Origin: Daejeonella sp. JGW-45 | GTDB lineage: Bacteria; Bacteroidota; Bacteroidia; Sphingobacteriales; Sphingobacteriaceae | Assembly: GCF_029360805.1 (NCBI RefSeq) | Contig: NZ_JARKNC010000008.1 | Span: 742,339 to 806,338 of the forward strand | Direction: 5' to 3' | DNA length: 64,000 bases | Shown: positions 9,577 through 60,284 of the stretch, piece by piece | Layout of the letters: every line of letters begins with the position of its first letter | How positions within the stretch are numbered: position 1 is the stretch's first letter | Notes under the pieces: generated by a model | Databases searched by the model: none | Told to the model about the DNA's origin: nothing | Seen by the model: the letters and a program-made list of their open reading frames with translations, nothing else | Made by a program: the position numbers and the translations under genes

Positions 9577-9719
9577 AGTTATACGTTTTACGTTATAAGT
9601 TTCTAAACATTGCATTATCGATAAACTTAGAAATTACACTTCACGTGTGACTTCTTTACCAGCTGTTTCTTATGCGTCAACACGTGAACATACAACTTAT
9701 AACGTAAAACGTACAACTC
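9577..9719. repeat. Inverted pair of heptamer arrays (ACGTTTTACGTTATA type)
   Basis: Two arms about 25 bp long, at 9577-9602 and 9692-9719, are reverse complements with about one mismatch over the shared core. Each is made of 7-bp words (AGTTATA, CGTTTTA, CGTTATA and complements). About 90 bp lie between them, including a CACGTGTGA/CACGTGAAC pair. The unit fills the gap between two minus-strand genes, with the right arm ending 4 bp before the stop codon at 9724. It has no coding potential. Confidence 0.8.
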
Positions 9720-9723
9720 ACTA

Positions 9724-9975
9724 TTATGCCTTGCTGTTATTATTACGGGTGATAGCTACGATAATAACAATAAAGACAGCAATCCCAACAACCCACACCC
9801 ATGGCTGCCCATACCAGACAGCATCGCCGCCGGCATCGACATCTACCTCTACTTTATCGGGAACTGACTGGGCAAAGGATTTGACAGATAATGCAAAAGC
9901 GCTTAAGATAGCGACAAGCGACATCAGGGTTTTTCCTAAAATAGAAAGCGGCTTTAATTGATTGATTGTTTTCAT
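9724..9975 (-). CDS. Small membrane protein with signal-like N-terminus
   Basis: 83 residues. A hydrophobic N-terminal segment (~13-35, ending SFAQ, a plausible signal peptidase site) is followed by an acidic stretch VDVDAGG and a C-terminal membrane helix WVWVVGIAVFIVIIVAI, then a short polar tail. The mature form would be a ~45-residue single-pass protein with a periplasmic face. Similar short proteins occur in Sphingobacteriaceae; function unknown. Confidence 0.65.
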   Translation of the reverse strand: MKTINQLKPLSILGKTLMSLVAILSAFALSVKSFAQSVPDKVEVDVDAGGDAVWYGQPWVWVVGIAVFIVIIVAITRNNNSKA

Positions 9976-10494
9976 GATGTTTTTGTTTAGTTTTCGATAC
10001 TAATCACTACAATTAACTGCGCCTTTGGTTTTGAATGAGCCGGAGATATGAACCGAAGCATGAGGCAAGGCACCCGGCTGAAGGCTGAACGGATCACAAG
10101 GCTTACTTTTCAAATAATCGGGTTTAATTAGAAACCGGCTTTATCATCAAGATTAGTGCGCTTGCAAGGTATGTGTTGTCTTTGAAGTAATCAGTGCTGC
10201 GCTCTGTGACCCGGAATTTGTTATCAGTAATCAGTGCTGTGCTCTGTGACCAGTAATCAGTCTGTCCATTAGTCACTACTGATTACTGATCACTGATTAC
10301 TGATCACCGAATACCGGTTACTGATTACTGATTACCCAACACCGATCCCCCCAACATGGTAACATTGATCGAAAACATTTTGGGCAAGATCGGACGAAAG
10401 AGCGCCAAACCCGGTTTCTACACGTCCAAATCCCCGCTCCTGACATCCTAAAAATCCCTCCTCAAATTATTGCATAAAATTTCTCAATTAAGTA
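9976..10494. other. Non-coding stretch upstream of atpD holding heptamer arrays
   Basis: This gap (to the atpD promoter) holds no convincing gene. Bases 9976-10180 show no clear structure. From 10187 the sequence becomes a series of 7-bp words on both orientations (next entry). After 10356 it is unique sequence leading into the promoter. Confidence 0.7.
10187..10355. repeat. Heptamer arrays, GTAATCA / CTGATTA type
   Basis: A near-identical 24-bp segment occurs at 10188-10211 and 10228-10251 (one mismatch). It is built from words GTAATCA, GTGCTGT and GCTCTGT. From 10279 to 10355 eleven consecutive heptamers can be read without slippage (CTGATTA, CTGATCA, CTGATTA, CTGATCA, CCGAATA, CCGGTTA, CTGATTA, CTGATTA, CCCAACA, CCGATCC, CCCCAAC). 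The right half is largely the reverse complement of the left half, so the region could fold into a long imperfect hairpin. Confidence 0.85.
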
Positions 10495-10524
10495 TTTGAT
10501 TTACGGGGATAAAGAGTATTTTTG
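10495..10524 (+). promoter_or_regulatory. Bacteroidota-type promoter of atpDC
   Basis: A TTTG box (10495-10498) and a perfect -7 element TATTTTTG (10517-10524) are separated by 18 bp, matching the Bacteroidota sigma-A consensus (TTTG ... TAnnTTTG). Transcription would start near 10531, leaving a 5' UTR of about 60 nt before atpD. Confidence 0.75.
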
Positions 10525-10590
10525 CAGACCAAAAAACACCCTTTAAAACGGGTGTAAATTGTTGATTAAATAAAGTTTTACAAAAATTAT

Positions 10591-58315: not shown

Positions 58316-58352
58316 AAGCGGAAGCTTCCGTACTTTCCGGAAGCTTCCGCTT
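58316..58352 (-). terminator. Palindromic terminator after the LiaF-like gene
   Basis: AAGCGGAAGCTTCCG / CGGAAGCTTCCGCTT, 15-bp perfect arms with a 7-nt loop, between the LiaF-like stop and the RDD start. No long T-run on the minus strand, so it may also be a structured repeat. Confidence 0.7.
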
Positions 58353-58370
58353 AATGCTTAACAAATATAT

Positions 58371-59312
58371 TTAATACTTTCTTACTTCGAATGAAGACAG
58401 GCCACCTTTGAGACTGATATTTACTTTATTAGCAGCGGTTTCATAATTACCGGTTTGGTAGGAACCGTCAGATTGCTTGGTAAAGCCGTTAAAATCCTTA
58501 GATGATAAGCCGCTGTCTACCACTATGCGGCAGCCGGAAGCTTCCGGAACTTCTATTTCAACACTTGCCACGCCTGTTTGTACAGACACGTCGGTAAGCG
58601 GCAGCCGTGATCCTATTTTTGCCTGGAACGAGGCCGCGCCGCCTTCAAAATTCAAACTGCGTACCTGGAAATGCTCAAGATCGAAATTAGCTTCACCTGC
58701 GCCCATCTCCACTGTAATATCCCAAACAGGATTACGGTTAAGGCGCAGTCGCGTTTCGTTGGATTCCAAATCATCCATCTTAAACCCGCGCCCCTTTTTA
58801 TCTCTTTTCCGAAACTCCAGCACCTCTACTGAATCCAGGGTTGTTTTTTCCAAAGTATAGCCGCCATAAGGCTCCTTCACATCAGCCTGGAATAAGCTGA
58901 CAGTACTATCCGTAAGCGTGTAAACCGTTGCCCCCCCCTTTACCGTCAATGAAGCTGATTTCGCACCGGTATATGGTTCAGTGAATGAATTTACGGCATT
59001 CCAATCCGCGCTTTTATTCCGCTTTTTATTATCAAACTTAAAGTGGACCCAGCCGTTGTCTTCCCTTGGTATTGAACCCTGATATCCTATAAATGCAAGC
59101 ACAATTAAGGTAACTGAGCCAGCTAATATCGGCGCGCTCGTTTTATTGGCAAAACGGCTCAGCAGCATATTGACACCGATGAGGATGAAAATAATAGGCC
59201 AGAATCGCCATACTGATCCCCAGTAAAAGTTTATTACATCAAAGTTGTCGAGCATAAAGACAGTTCCAACGAAGATGAAGATCAGGCCCCAGATAATTTT
59301 TTCGGTTTTCAT
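58371..59312 (-). CDS. LiaF/toastrack-like envelope protein
   Basis: 313 residues. Three to four N-terminal membrane helices with IIWGLIFIFVGTVFMLDNF and FWPIIFILIGVNML (DUF5668-type), then a C-terminal beta-helix-like domain rich in Gly/Val with repeated LTVKGG, MGAGEANFDL, TGVASVEIEV and SLKGGLSSFEV strands. Such proteins sense or damp cell-envelope stress with PspC-type partners (family knowledge). Next to a PspC gene here, 65 bp downstream of it. Confidence 0.85.
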   Translation of the reverse strand: MKTEKIIWGLIFIFVGTVFMLDNFDVINFYWGSVWRFWPIIFILIGVNMLLSRFANKTSAPILAGSVTLIVLAFIGYQGSIPREDNGWVHFKFDNKKRNKSADWNAVNSFTEPYTGAKSASLTVKGGATVYTLTDSTVSLFQADVKEPYGGYTLEKTTLDSVEVLEFRKRDKKGRGFKMDDLESNETRLRLNRNPVWDITVEMGAGEANFDLEHFQVRSLNFEGGAASFQAKIGSRLPLTDVSVQTGVASVEIEVPEASGCRIVVDSGLSSKDFNGFTKQSDGSYQTGNYETAANKVNISLKGGLSSFEVRKY

Positions 59313-59377
59313 AATTTAATGTTTCTTGTTTATATGTGAGAACATTAGAAAGCACCCTGACAGGGGCTGCCATTATT

Positions 59378-59977
59378 CTAAACTTCCTTGTTAGTGTTTT
59401 CGTCAGCAATAATAGTGGTTTCTTCTGTAGCCGCAGCAGTGCCGGGTTGAGCCGCAGCTTTAGCTTCCTGTTCAGCACGCTGTTTTTCCTTCCATTCCTC
59501 TTTCCAGGATCGTTTATTAGCATTCGCAATCATCATTATCCCAGGGATAATGAACACCAAAGGCCAGAGTTTGTGGAATTCGAACCAATATGGCACGAAG
59601 TGAAATTCGTCGAGCAGAAAAAAGGCCCCAAATATGACGAATAAAAGCCCGATCATTACTCCGCCATTGCCAGACTTCTTTTTCTTTGGATAAGGAATTC
59701 CGGTAAAGGTTGGATCATTTACCGGGCCGCCAGGATTTGCTGCATTATCGTAAACTTTGTAATCTGCATTGAACTGGCTATAATTGGGGTTAAAAGGTTT
59801 CGCCGGTACAGCGATCCATAATACGATATAAGCCAATACCCCAGAGAAGCCAGCCAGGACAGCCAGTACAAATGCAATGCGTATCCATGTTACGTCAACA
59901 TCGAAGTATTCTGCAAGTCCGGCACAGACCCCAGCTATCGTTTTCTCCTGCTCATTCCGTTGTAGTTTCTTTTCCAT
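59378..59977 (-). CDS. PspC-domain protein
   Basis: 199 residues. PspC domain (RNEQEKTIAGVCAGLAEYFDVDVTWIR, first ~65 residues) with a membrane helix, a ~40-residue linker, then a DUF5668-like helix pair (~105-155) and an Ala/Glu-rich tail. PspC links membrane damage to the phage-shock response in other phyla. Probable operon with the LiaF-like gene. Confidence 0.92.
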   Translation of the reverse strand: MEKKLQRNEQEKTIAGVCAGLAEYFDVDVTWIRIAFVLAVLAGFSGVLAYIVLWIAVPAKPFNPNYSQFNADYKVYDNAANPGGPVNDPTFTGIPYPKKKKSGNGGVMIGLLFVIFGAFFLLDEFHFVPYWFEFHKLWPLVFIIPGIMMIANANKRSWKEEWKEKQRAEQEAKAAAQPGTAAATEETTIIADENTNKEV

Positions 59978-60284
59978 TTTTTTAAGCGTTTAAATTGTTT
60001 TCTTTTTTAGTTTAGGTTTAGGTCAACAGGATGGTTATTCCTTTGTTAACAGATCAAAACTACTTCAAGAACTGCATCTGCTAAATAGCAAATAGGCAGG
60101 GTATACCAAGTACTCGGTAAACGGCGGTTAAATGTCGGCGAAAAAGAATCAAGAGCCAGGAATCAAGATTTCTGCACAGCGTAACTTTGTCATCAGTCAC
60201 CGAAAATGAAGTATTACCTTCCCTTCCACTTTCCACTTTCCACTTTCCACTTTCAACTTTCAACTTTCAACTTTCAACTAAATC
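59978..60284. repeat. Gap with TTCCACT/TTCAACT heptamer array
   Basis: 307 bp without a gene. From 60224 to about 60279 CTTTCCA-type words (x4) are followed by CTTTCAA-type words (x4), then the SDR stop. An open frame on the minus strand is only the translated repeat. It shares its word (reverse complement TGGAAAG) with the array at 45836. Confidence 0.85.

Follow-up and report, generated by a model that had tools for sequence, protein, structure and literature searches.

Seven-nucleotide arrays with inverted partners and outward strand polarity in the intergenic DNA of Daejeonella sp. JGW-45 and related Bacteroidota

The short tandemly repeated repetitive (STRR) sequences of heterocystous cyanobacteria have an over-represented 7-nt unit. 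Repetitive extragenic palindromes (REPs) and bacterial interspersed mosaic elements (BIMEs) are intergenic inverted repeats behind stop codons; REPs have one sequence per genome and are associated with a REP-associated tyrosine transposase (RAYT). In this study, arrays of consecutive heptamers were analyzed in a 64,000-nt stretch of DNA from Daejeonella sp. JGW-45 (the "window"; C9:742339-806338, contig NZ_JARKNC010000008.1 of assembly GCF_029360805.1), in further parts of the source genome (4.1 Mb, 10 contigs), and in its relatives. The arrays have an exact 7-nt period, are commonly faced by an inverted partner of the same word, and run with their G-rich strand outward from the nearest open reading frame (ORF). 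In orthologous gaps, arrays tend to persist as their words turn over, and a few differences of 7 nt were observed between species. The arrays are read here as heptanucleotide simple-sequence repeats (SSRs) of intergenic DNA that form inverted pairs in about half of the cases, often begin at stop codons, and change by 7-nt slippage and by copying from arm to arm; our confidence in this reading is about even.

In PMC4692102, the GGGAATC repeats of Xanthomonas and the GGGGA(C/T)T repeats of Nostoc are described as heptanucleotide repeats that are mostly intergenic. The Xanthomonas repeats form inverted "convergent" pairs (70 and 75 cases), lie closer to the 5' neighbouring ORF (28 vs 160 nt), and are situated between convergent ORFs in 16% of cases and between divergent ones in 7-8%; two Xanthomonas genomes have the same gaps occupied by repeats that vary in length and sequence. 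The strand preference given for the Xanthomonas and Nostoc repeats equals the outward rule reported below. For the over-representation of heptameric SSRs the same text cites a 2007 survey, and for its possible origin a slippage hypothesis based on the contact length of the polymerase. PMC4679880 describes intergenic direct repeats of the heptamer TAACTGA in Beggiatoaceae, cyanobacteria, and five Bacteroidetes. In the Beggiatoa genome most of them lie immediately upstream of a start; between two closely related Cyanothece strains most indels were 7-nt steps, and other heptamer repeats were found in Gramella, Aequorivita, Elizabethkingia, and Microcystis.

Arrays in the window were called with a lag-identity scan (score at least 8) of 35 gaps. 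Elsewhere, the threshold was usually a score of at least 12, hairpins were accepted at 13 or above, and a hairpin was termed periodic if the lag-7 identity of its arms was at least 0.45; these cut-offs were set by hand. Gene models came from a simple script, by which 84-88% of the source-genome sample was coding, and some gap borders are therefore wrong. Units with a shorter internal period, polarity ties, gaps above 1200-1500 bp, duplicate indels, and overlapping hairpins were left out, as were loci L001-L008 and most of L202-L231. Some of the comparison genomes were picked for their large contigs and are thus non-random.

The existence of period-7 intergenic arrays, which a first-pass annotation of the window had proposed, was confirmed. 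It had listed about 19 arrays in about 14 gaps; the recount was 20 lag-7 arrays in 12 of the 35 gaps, compared to 0, 3, 2, 0, 0, and 1 arrays at lags of 5, 6, 8, 9, 10, and 11, respectively. Shuffled gaps yielded a mean of 0.38 lag-7 arrays and a maximum of 2 (100 shuffles). Lag-7 identity was 0.3265 (z 12.5) in the intergenic DNA of the window and 0.242 in its coding DNA, with harmonics at lag 14 (z 8.6) and lag 21 (z 6.8), and Tandem Repeats Finder (TRF) concurred with the lag scan on the period-7 arrays. A family of ACGTTNT/AAGTTNT words, previously placed at nine loci, was recovered as 10 arrays in 8 gaps. An Rfam search of the window matched a tRNA only, with no known RNA family at the arrays.

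The excess of heptads was not confined to the window. In 400 kb of contig C1, 55 lag-7 arrays (score at least 12) were accompanied by 0-2 arrays at each of lags 4-6 and 8-13, and shuffled controls gave 0-0.3. Over 964 kb of the source genome, 120 lag-7 arrays were noncoding and 3 coding; the corresponding figures in three comparison sets were 76/12, 35/0, and 88/7. The heptamer was thus over-represented relative to other unit lengths in the source genome and its relatives, and 100 kb of E. coli K-12 contained no lag-7 array. The nearest relatives by LeuC (mostly Pedobacter and Mucilaginibacter) had 87-92% identity; among 80 LeuC loci, the 17 nearest contained 35 lag-7 arrays, and the remaining 63 contained 84 arrays at lag 7, 40 at lag 8, and 26 at lag 6. 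An autocorrelation check of the kind that the annotation had proposed, with shuffled and coding controls, therefore returned a lag-7 excess in intergenic DNA both genome-wide and in relatives, and the arrays are not peculiar to this assembly. Their density varies among congeners (7, 5, and 2 lag-7 arrays per 100 kb in G018, G003, and G009), and some samples were empty (G013, 80 kb; G012, 20 kb). Apart from a G018 stretch, ten more genomes were sampled, nine from other families of the class and one from the same family; four of them had lag-7 arrays, 11 in all.

That inverted arms are frequent, as had been noted at first, was borne out by a test for a same-word inverted partner within 150 bp (score at least 14). 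Such a partner was present for 37 of 67 arrays of the source genome, 17 of 35 of Sphingobacteriaceae, and 42 of 84 others. Reversed sequence gave 0, 1, and 3 partners in these three groups, and the complements of other arrays gave 10, 0, and 2; we read the count of 10 as a consequence of the ACGT family being common in the source genome. In 864 kb of this genome, a search blind to period recovered 88 long inverted repeats between genes. At lags 3-6 and 8-13 the identity of their arms was 0.238-0.286; lag 7 gave 0.531 and lag 14 gave 0.543. By the 0.45 cut, 45 of the 88 were heptad-periodic (18 of the ACGT family, 27 with other words). In the other sets, lag-7 arm identity was 0.448, 0.453, and 0.390, the third of these sets also having 0.362 at lag 8.

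The arrays are closely tied to gene borders. For periodic hairpins in tandem gaps (27), the median distance was 3 nt from the stop to the beginning of the hairpin and 22 nt from its end to the next start; the medians for as many non-periodic hairpins were 34 and 151 nt. Of 53 tandem-gap arrays in the source genome, 38% began within 5 nt of the upstream stop, compared to 6% under random placement. Sixty-four arrays of this genome were nearest a stop and 39 nearest a start; the proportion within 5 nt of the nearest stop was 40 of 64, compared to 19 of 37, 14 of 18, and 12 of 30 in the three comparison sets. Array density per kb of the source genome was 0.28 in divergent, 0.81-0.99 in tandem, and 2.01 in convergent gaps; unlike in the source genome, convergent gaps were not the densest in the comparison sets.

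Of 100 informative arrays of the source genome, 88 had the G-rich strand pointing away from the nearest ORF (outward:inward, 54:8 at stop edges and 34:4 at start edges). The ratios were 28:6 and 27:4 in congeners, 16:2 and 12:0 in other Sphingobacteriaceae, and 19:9 (p 0.087) and 43:3 in a Flavobacteriaceae-rich set (L046-L108, L161-L179). Background composition was rejected as the source of this polarity: in the four sets, array-free gaps were unskewed at stop edges (150:157, 96:86, 50:49, 289:339) and mildly skewed at start edges (267:169, 134:101, 67:41, 450:238). The arms of hairpins agreed, in that G exceeded C in the 5' arm of 42 of the 45 periodic hairpins of the source genome and fell short of it in 2, compared to 17 and 22 of 43 non-periodic ones; all 18 ACGT-family hairpins had a GTT-rich 5' arm, as judged by counts of GTT vs AAC. 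Across the 80 loci, the split was 63 vs 23 of 90 periodic hairpins, and the non-periodic ones leaned the same way (118 vs 79 of 217).

All comparisons of copy number and of gaps were made between species. In 117 comparisons of orthologous gaps with G018, G009, and G006, arrays were present in both genomes in 13 cases, in the source genome only in 9, in the relative only in 10, and in neither in 85; about 4.3 shared cases would be expected if presence were independent, and one gap of the source genome may count for several relatives. The atpD-atpC gap has GGTATCA arrays in the source genome and GAGATAT-like arrays in G009, with inverted pairs visible by eye in both; G018 lacks an array there. 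Three words were seen at the gap near 33177: one in the source genome, another in G018, and a third common to G009 and G006. Behind ilvC, lag-7 arrays were present in all 11 congeners read, with AAGT units in every one and ACGT units in G003 only; the leuA-leuC gap had arrays in all 13 congeners read, with ACGT units in G018, G006, and G003 and a single such unit in G016. Multiple ACGT units at these two gaps were limited to the source genome, G003, and G018. Since both gaps of the source genome contain ACGT units, the words were probably changed in place. Farther afield, 67 gaps of 30 nt or more downstream of leuC were compared: 39 had lag-7 arrays, and all 24 with a hairpin had a periodic one, with differing words; AAGC words stood in L070 and L082 where L059 and L067 had AATC words. 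In the species pairs L056/L062 and L059/L063, the difference was one 7-nt unit inside an array. Noncoding indels that copied the neighbouring stretch (97 pairs) numbered 5, 2, 1, 5, and 1 at lengths of 4, 5, 6, 7, and 8 nt, and none at 9-28 nt.

Words were also compared genome-wide in 20 genomes by counting overlapping three-unit matches, so that one long array counts several times. ACGTNNT matches numbered 251 in the source genome, 173 in G018, 63 in G003, 22 in G006, 6 in G010, and 0-2 in the other 15. AAGTNNT was found in 19 of the 20 genomes (509 in G002, the highest; 177 in G009, 174 in G008, and 44 in the source genome), GRTAATC in the source genome (117) and G018 (232) with 0-1 in the other 18, and GAAARCT in the source genome (175) with 0-80 elsewhere. 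Over the whole of the ilvC-leuC query, G018 was closer to the source genome (78%) than the other congeners were (74-75%). Among 102 ACGT-family units, the most frequent were ACGTTTT, ACGTTGT, ACGTTAT, and AAGTTAT, and C occupied free position 6 in 2. The words had initially been thought unrelated between loci; they do differ, but the vocabulary recurs throughout the genome. The loci of one genome do not look independent, and the vocabularies appear to be lineage dialects.

Individual features of the window are given in its own coordinates. Hairpin 1 combines ACGTTNT/AAGTTNT heptads in the 5' arm (9577..9601, plus strand; array 9578-9601, score 10.4) with a 3' arm and array at 9687..9718 (minus strand; array 9687-9717, score 13.0), the hairpin scoring 22.8 with 9694-9718. 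Hairpin 2 has AATCAGT heptads on its 5' side (10203..10261, plus; arm 10203-10235, array 10220-10261, score 8.6) and a CTGATTA/CTGATCA array (10267..10335, minus; array 31.2, hairpin 17.6) that includes its 3' arm (10278-10310). Between genes that match ATP-synt_ab and ATP-synt_DE_N in Pfam (atpD-atpC), a GGTATCA array (12099..12121, plus) is the 5' arm of a perfect 23-bp stem (hairpin 23.0, lag-7 identity 1.00). The 3' arm (12132-12154) belongs to a CTGATAC array (12125..12172, minus; score 32.2) whose end stands beside an ATG at 12174, as annotated. Behind the stop of the ketol-acid reductoisomerase gene (ilvC), an AAGTTGT/ACGTTTT array forms a 5' arm (18232..18270, plus; array 18.8, hairpin 22.0) opposite an inverted 3' arm (18284..18318, minus; array 14.8). 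A 338-aa ORF of the aconitase family (18322-19338) lies between ilvC and leuA and matches domain positions 1-289 of 463; a full-length LeuC-like ORF is found downstream of it. The leuA-leuC gap holds a short ACGT-family array (20956..20973, minus; score 8.8), and an ACGT/AAGT-family array (24636..24667, minus; score 11.8) precedes a leuB-like gene identified as Iso_dh by Pfam. The exceptional 8-bp period noted at 25741 was recovered at 25741..25771 (plus; lag-8 score 14.2).

A GAGCTAT/GCTGATA array had been misplaced at 33231. It consists of GAGCTATGGGCTGTGAGCTAT (33324..33346, plus; located by sequence and fold) and its partner, a GCTGATA array (33395..33438, minus; score 23.8, inverted partner 14.4) beside the stop end of a minus-strand URO-D gene. 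An ACGT/AAGT-family array (37954..37984, plus; score 10.8) and a TCTTTGC/TCTTTAT array (38050..38082, minus; score 19.4) are followed by a CTCCCGG/CTCTTGG array (38088..38128, minus; score 12.0) flush with the ALAD gene (Pfam); the reported contact at 38128 was upheld, the stop end of this minus-strand gene being at 38129. An ACGT-family array reaches the stop end of a signal peptidase II gene (42212..42246, minus; 42212-42238 scored 9.0, the rest assigned by sequence; gene by Pfam), and an AACTTAC (AAGT-family) array lies at 42799..42836 (minus; score 11.2). A GTGGAAA array (45835..45857, plus; score 16.0) adjoins CCCGATAGCTATCGGG (45820-45835), a perfect palindrome between GTGGAAA units that constitutes a dispersed family of its own, with 28 copies in the source genome; it was matched in 110 of 399 genomes searched (the source genome included), in up to 60 copies. 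Farther on are an ACGT/AAGT-family array (55622..55657, plus; score 13.6) and a TCAGACG/TCATACT array (55682..55739, minus) directed toward the stop end of a minus-strand kinase gene (Pfam). The latter had been said to extend to the stop at 55739; the scored part (10.2) ends at 55707 and the TRF call at 55721-55727, with weaker heptads continuing to 55739. A CACTTTC/CAACTTT array (60224..60279, minus; score 46.8) is purine-rich on the minus strand, which also encodes both flanking ORFs.

According to the slippage and arm-copying reading, units would be gained and lost in sevens by slippage during DNA copying, a new word would cross from arm to arm through template switching over the hairpin, and short ectopic template switches could carry words to other gaps of the same genome. 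Arrays would persist where 7-nt changes are harmless, i.e. outside coding DNA and rarely between divergent promoters. Copying in sevens with transfer between arms would account for period, arms, place, and turnover. The copying by period that the first-pass annotation had proposed is accordingly retained in part: the single-unit differences in two species pairs accord with it, but a purely local version is insufficient, because about half of the arrays are arms of same-word hairpins, strand polarity is strong, and words recur as lineage dialects. Several points count against our reading. The measure of seven, the outward polarity, and the dialects are left unexplained by slippage and arm copying; plain slippage predicts neither a G-strand polarity nor a vocabulary that is shared within a genome and nearly absent from most congeners. 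Slippage should also give periods of 5, 6, 8, and 9, which are almost absent in the source genome. Unlike the source genome, the Flavobacteriaceae-rich set has many 8-bp arrays (39 of them noncoding), and lag 8 outnumbered lag 7 by 3 to 2 in the 100-kb sample of G009. The overall spectrum of noncoding indels (97 pairs) has only a shoulder at 7 (20, 15, 15, and 6 at lengths of 5, 6, 7, and 8 nt). Directional growth was rejected, there being no purity gradient along 149 arrays. Finally, the arms of 27 hairpins were more alike within species (0.60) than between species (0.38 and 0.40); this contrast is suggestive of concerted evolution at most, because the hairpin search selects arms that are alike.

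Among the alternatives, sites for a sequence-specific trans-acting protein that binds DNA or RNA and reads it in 7-nt steps, the vocabulary following drift in its preference, would explain the dialects of ACGTNNT, AAGTNNT, and GRTAATC and perhaps the strong polarity. The near-exclusion of C from free position 6 and the retention of arrays, mostly of AAGT units, at the ilvC and leuA-leuC gaps of the congeners read also accord with such a protein. We nonetheless think it unlikely: there are many words per genome and several in some gaps, the ACGT-rich genome G018 has AAGT units at its ilvC gap, the 20 neighbouring proteins inspected are mostly metabolic with no common theme, and there is no candidate factor. 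Slightly less probable still are hairpins selected as mRNA structures at gene ends, REP-like, which would block 3' exonucleases or set differential expression within operons and for which any stem-forming word would serve. The long stems, the proximity of tandem-gap periodic hairpins to the stop and the next start, and the way in which array density in the source genome tracks the number of stop edges per gap are as that hypothesis would have them; about half of the arrays, however, have no partner, and stem formation needs no period of 7. On the transcribed strand, moreover, periodic stems of tandem gaps had 90 G.U and 102 A.C mismatches (22:14 in the subset from the source genome). Non-periodic hairpins showed no G.U excess either (119:135), so this test is without a positive control. 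Intrinsic terminators were rejected, as at least six T in the next 10 nt followed 5% of the tandem 7-periodic hairpins (16% of the non-periodic ones); given the absence of a G.U excess and the rarity of U-runs, selected RNA stems and intrinsic terminators are both unsupported. Arms serving as Rho rut sites were dismissed on paper, the YC dinucleotide being absent from the ACGT-family arm by inspection.

Considerably less plausible is a mobile element, palindromic and dispersed, whose heptad period would be incidental: a miniature inverted-repeat transposable element or a REP moved by a RAYT. The ACGT-family unit behind ilvC does have matches elsewhere in the genome (about 80-95 bp, 72-80% identity), and the single polarity of the 18 family hairpins would suit such an element; the same layout, however, occurs at other loci with other words, the only Y1_Tnp gene adjoins a non-periodic palindrome, and no conserved ends beyond the heptads were seen, no systematic search having been made. 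The exact period with differing words, the intergenic position, and the view that the arrays are not one dispersed sequence, as had been annotated, were supported, as were a genome-wide spread and an occurrence in relatives. We consider it very improbable that the arrays are scars of double-strand breaks, at which an end-joining or telomerase-like (7-nt-templated) activity would have lengthened both ends outward before they were rejoined into inward-facing arms of the same word. The inversion of the arms, their common word, and the outward G-strand polarity would fit; five genomes have more than two ACGTNNT matches, and three of these (the source genome, G018, and G006) have RVT_1 genes. In the 20-genome search, however, Ku was not found in the array-rich G002, G009, G008, and G017 and was present in G015, G005, and G004, which are poor in AAGTNNT; RVT_1 was detected in three genomes, which include neither G003 nor G002, the latter having the highest AAGTNNT count. 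Dependence on Ku or on a reverse transcriptase was therefore not borne out. A broader proposal is that bacteria of several phyla share an activity that copies or marks DNA in a 7-nt measure, has a strand polarity, and lays down arrays from gene borders outward. Its sequence preference would be set in trans, so that the whole vocabulary would shift together, from AAGTNNT to ACGTNNT and GRTAATC in the lineage that includes the source genome and G018; the interpretation of the Xanthomonas and Nostoc repeats as G-quadruplexes would become a special case. We regard it as speculative and a little less likely than the mRNA structures.

Some sequences encountered in these searches are recorded here. 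The sole Y1_Tnp match of the source genome (G000:C1:396760-397101) lies beside a long non-periodic double palindrome that begins 139 bp behind it at about C1:397241 and ends in CAAGCCCTTCAGGCTTG; gene and palindrome are possibly a REP/RAYT pair. RAYT-mobilised palindromes were rejected as a source of the arrays on the basis of this single match and its non-periodic hairpin. A second recurrent inverted repeat, approximately TTTTAACGCAAAGGNCGCAAAGT, is found near C1:321789, C1:309040, C2:158330, C7:130123, and C7:273424, and a third recurrent hairpin, approximately GACCCCGAAGG.GGTCGCAT, near positions 110166, 128648, 222888, and 327110 of contig C1; neither is heptad-periodic. The RVT_1 matches (G000:C9:402008-402574, G018:C10:8371-9093, and G006:C7:690-1313) are all in genomes that carry ACGTNNT; G003 and G010 have ACGTNNT arrays and no RVT_1 match.

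The arrays can now be set against the systems introduced at the outset. The likeness to STRR repeats drawn by the first-pass annotation is apt in kind; a motif search of plasmids in connection with it gave no match. With REPs and BIMEs, the arrays have in common that they are intergenic inverted repeats behind stops; they differ in being neither a single sequence nor associated, at the heptads, with a RAYT. One word is favoured among the TAACTGA repeats (PMC4679880), whereas the arrays described here have many words, lie oftener behind stops, and are inverted in about half of the cases; the TAACTGA consensus was absent from 42 arrays of the source genome (400 kb of C1). No description of same-word inverted heptamer arms, of an outward rule over many words, or of dialects in Bacteroidota was found in the literature searched, most subscription papers being outside its scope. 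The period, the same-word arms, and the outward rule hold here over many words. Genome dialects, and gaps in which arrays persist through a turnover of words, are natural experiments that may lead toward the polymerase or binding factor responsible. G-quadruplexes were rejected for the present arrays from the words alone, as the commonest have isolated Gs and no G-tracts, and a few others contain GG or GGG (e.g. GGGAAT). The Xanthomonas and Nostoc repeats (PMC4692102) resemble the present arrays in their inverted pairs, outward G-rich strand, and rarity between divergent ORFs, and differ in that each is one G-tract word studied for G-quadruplexes. Because the layout holds over many Bacteroidota words and one G-rich Xanthomonas word, it is separable from any single word and from G-quadruplexes. 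The arrays are a many-word Bacteroidota version of the heptanucleotide repeats published for Xanthomonas and Nostoc.

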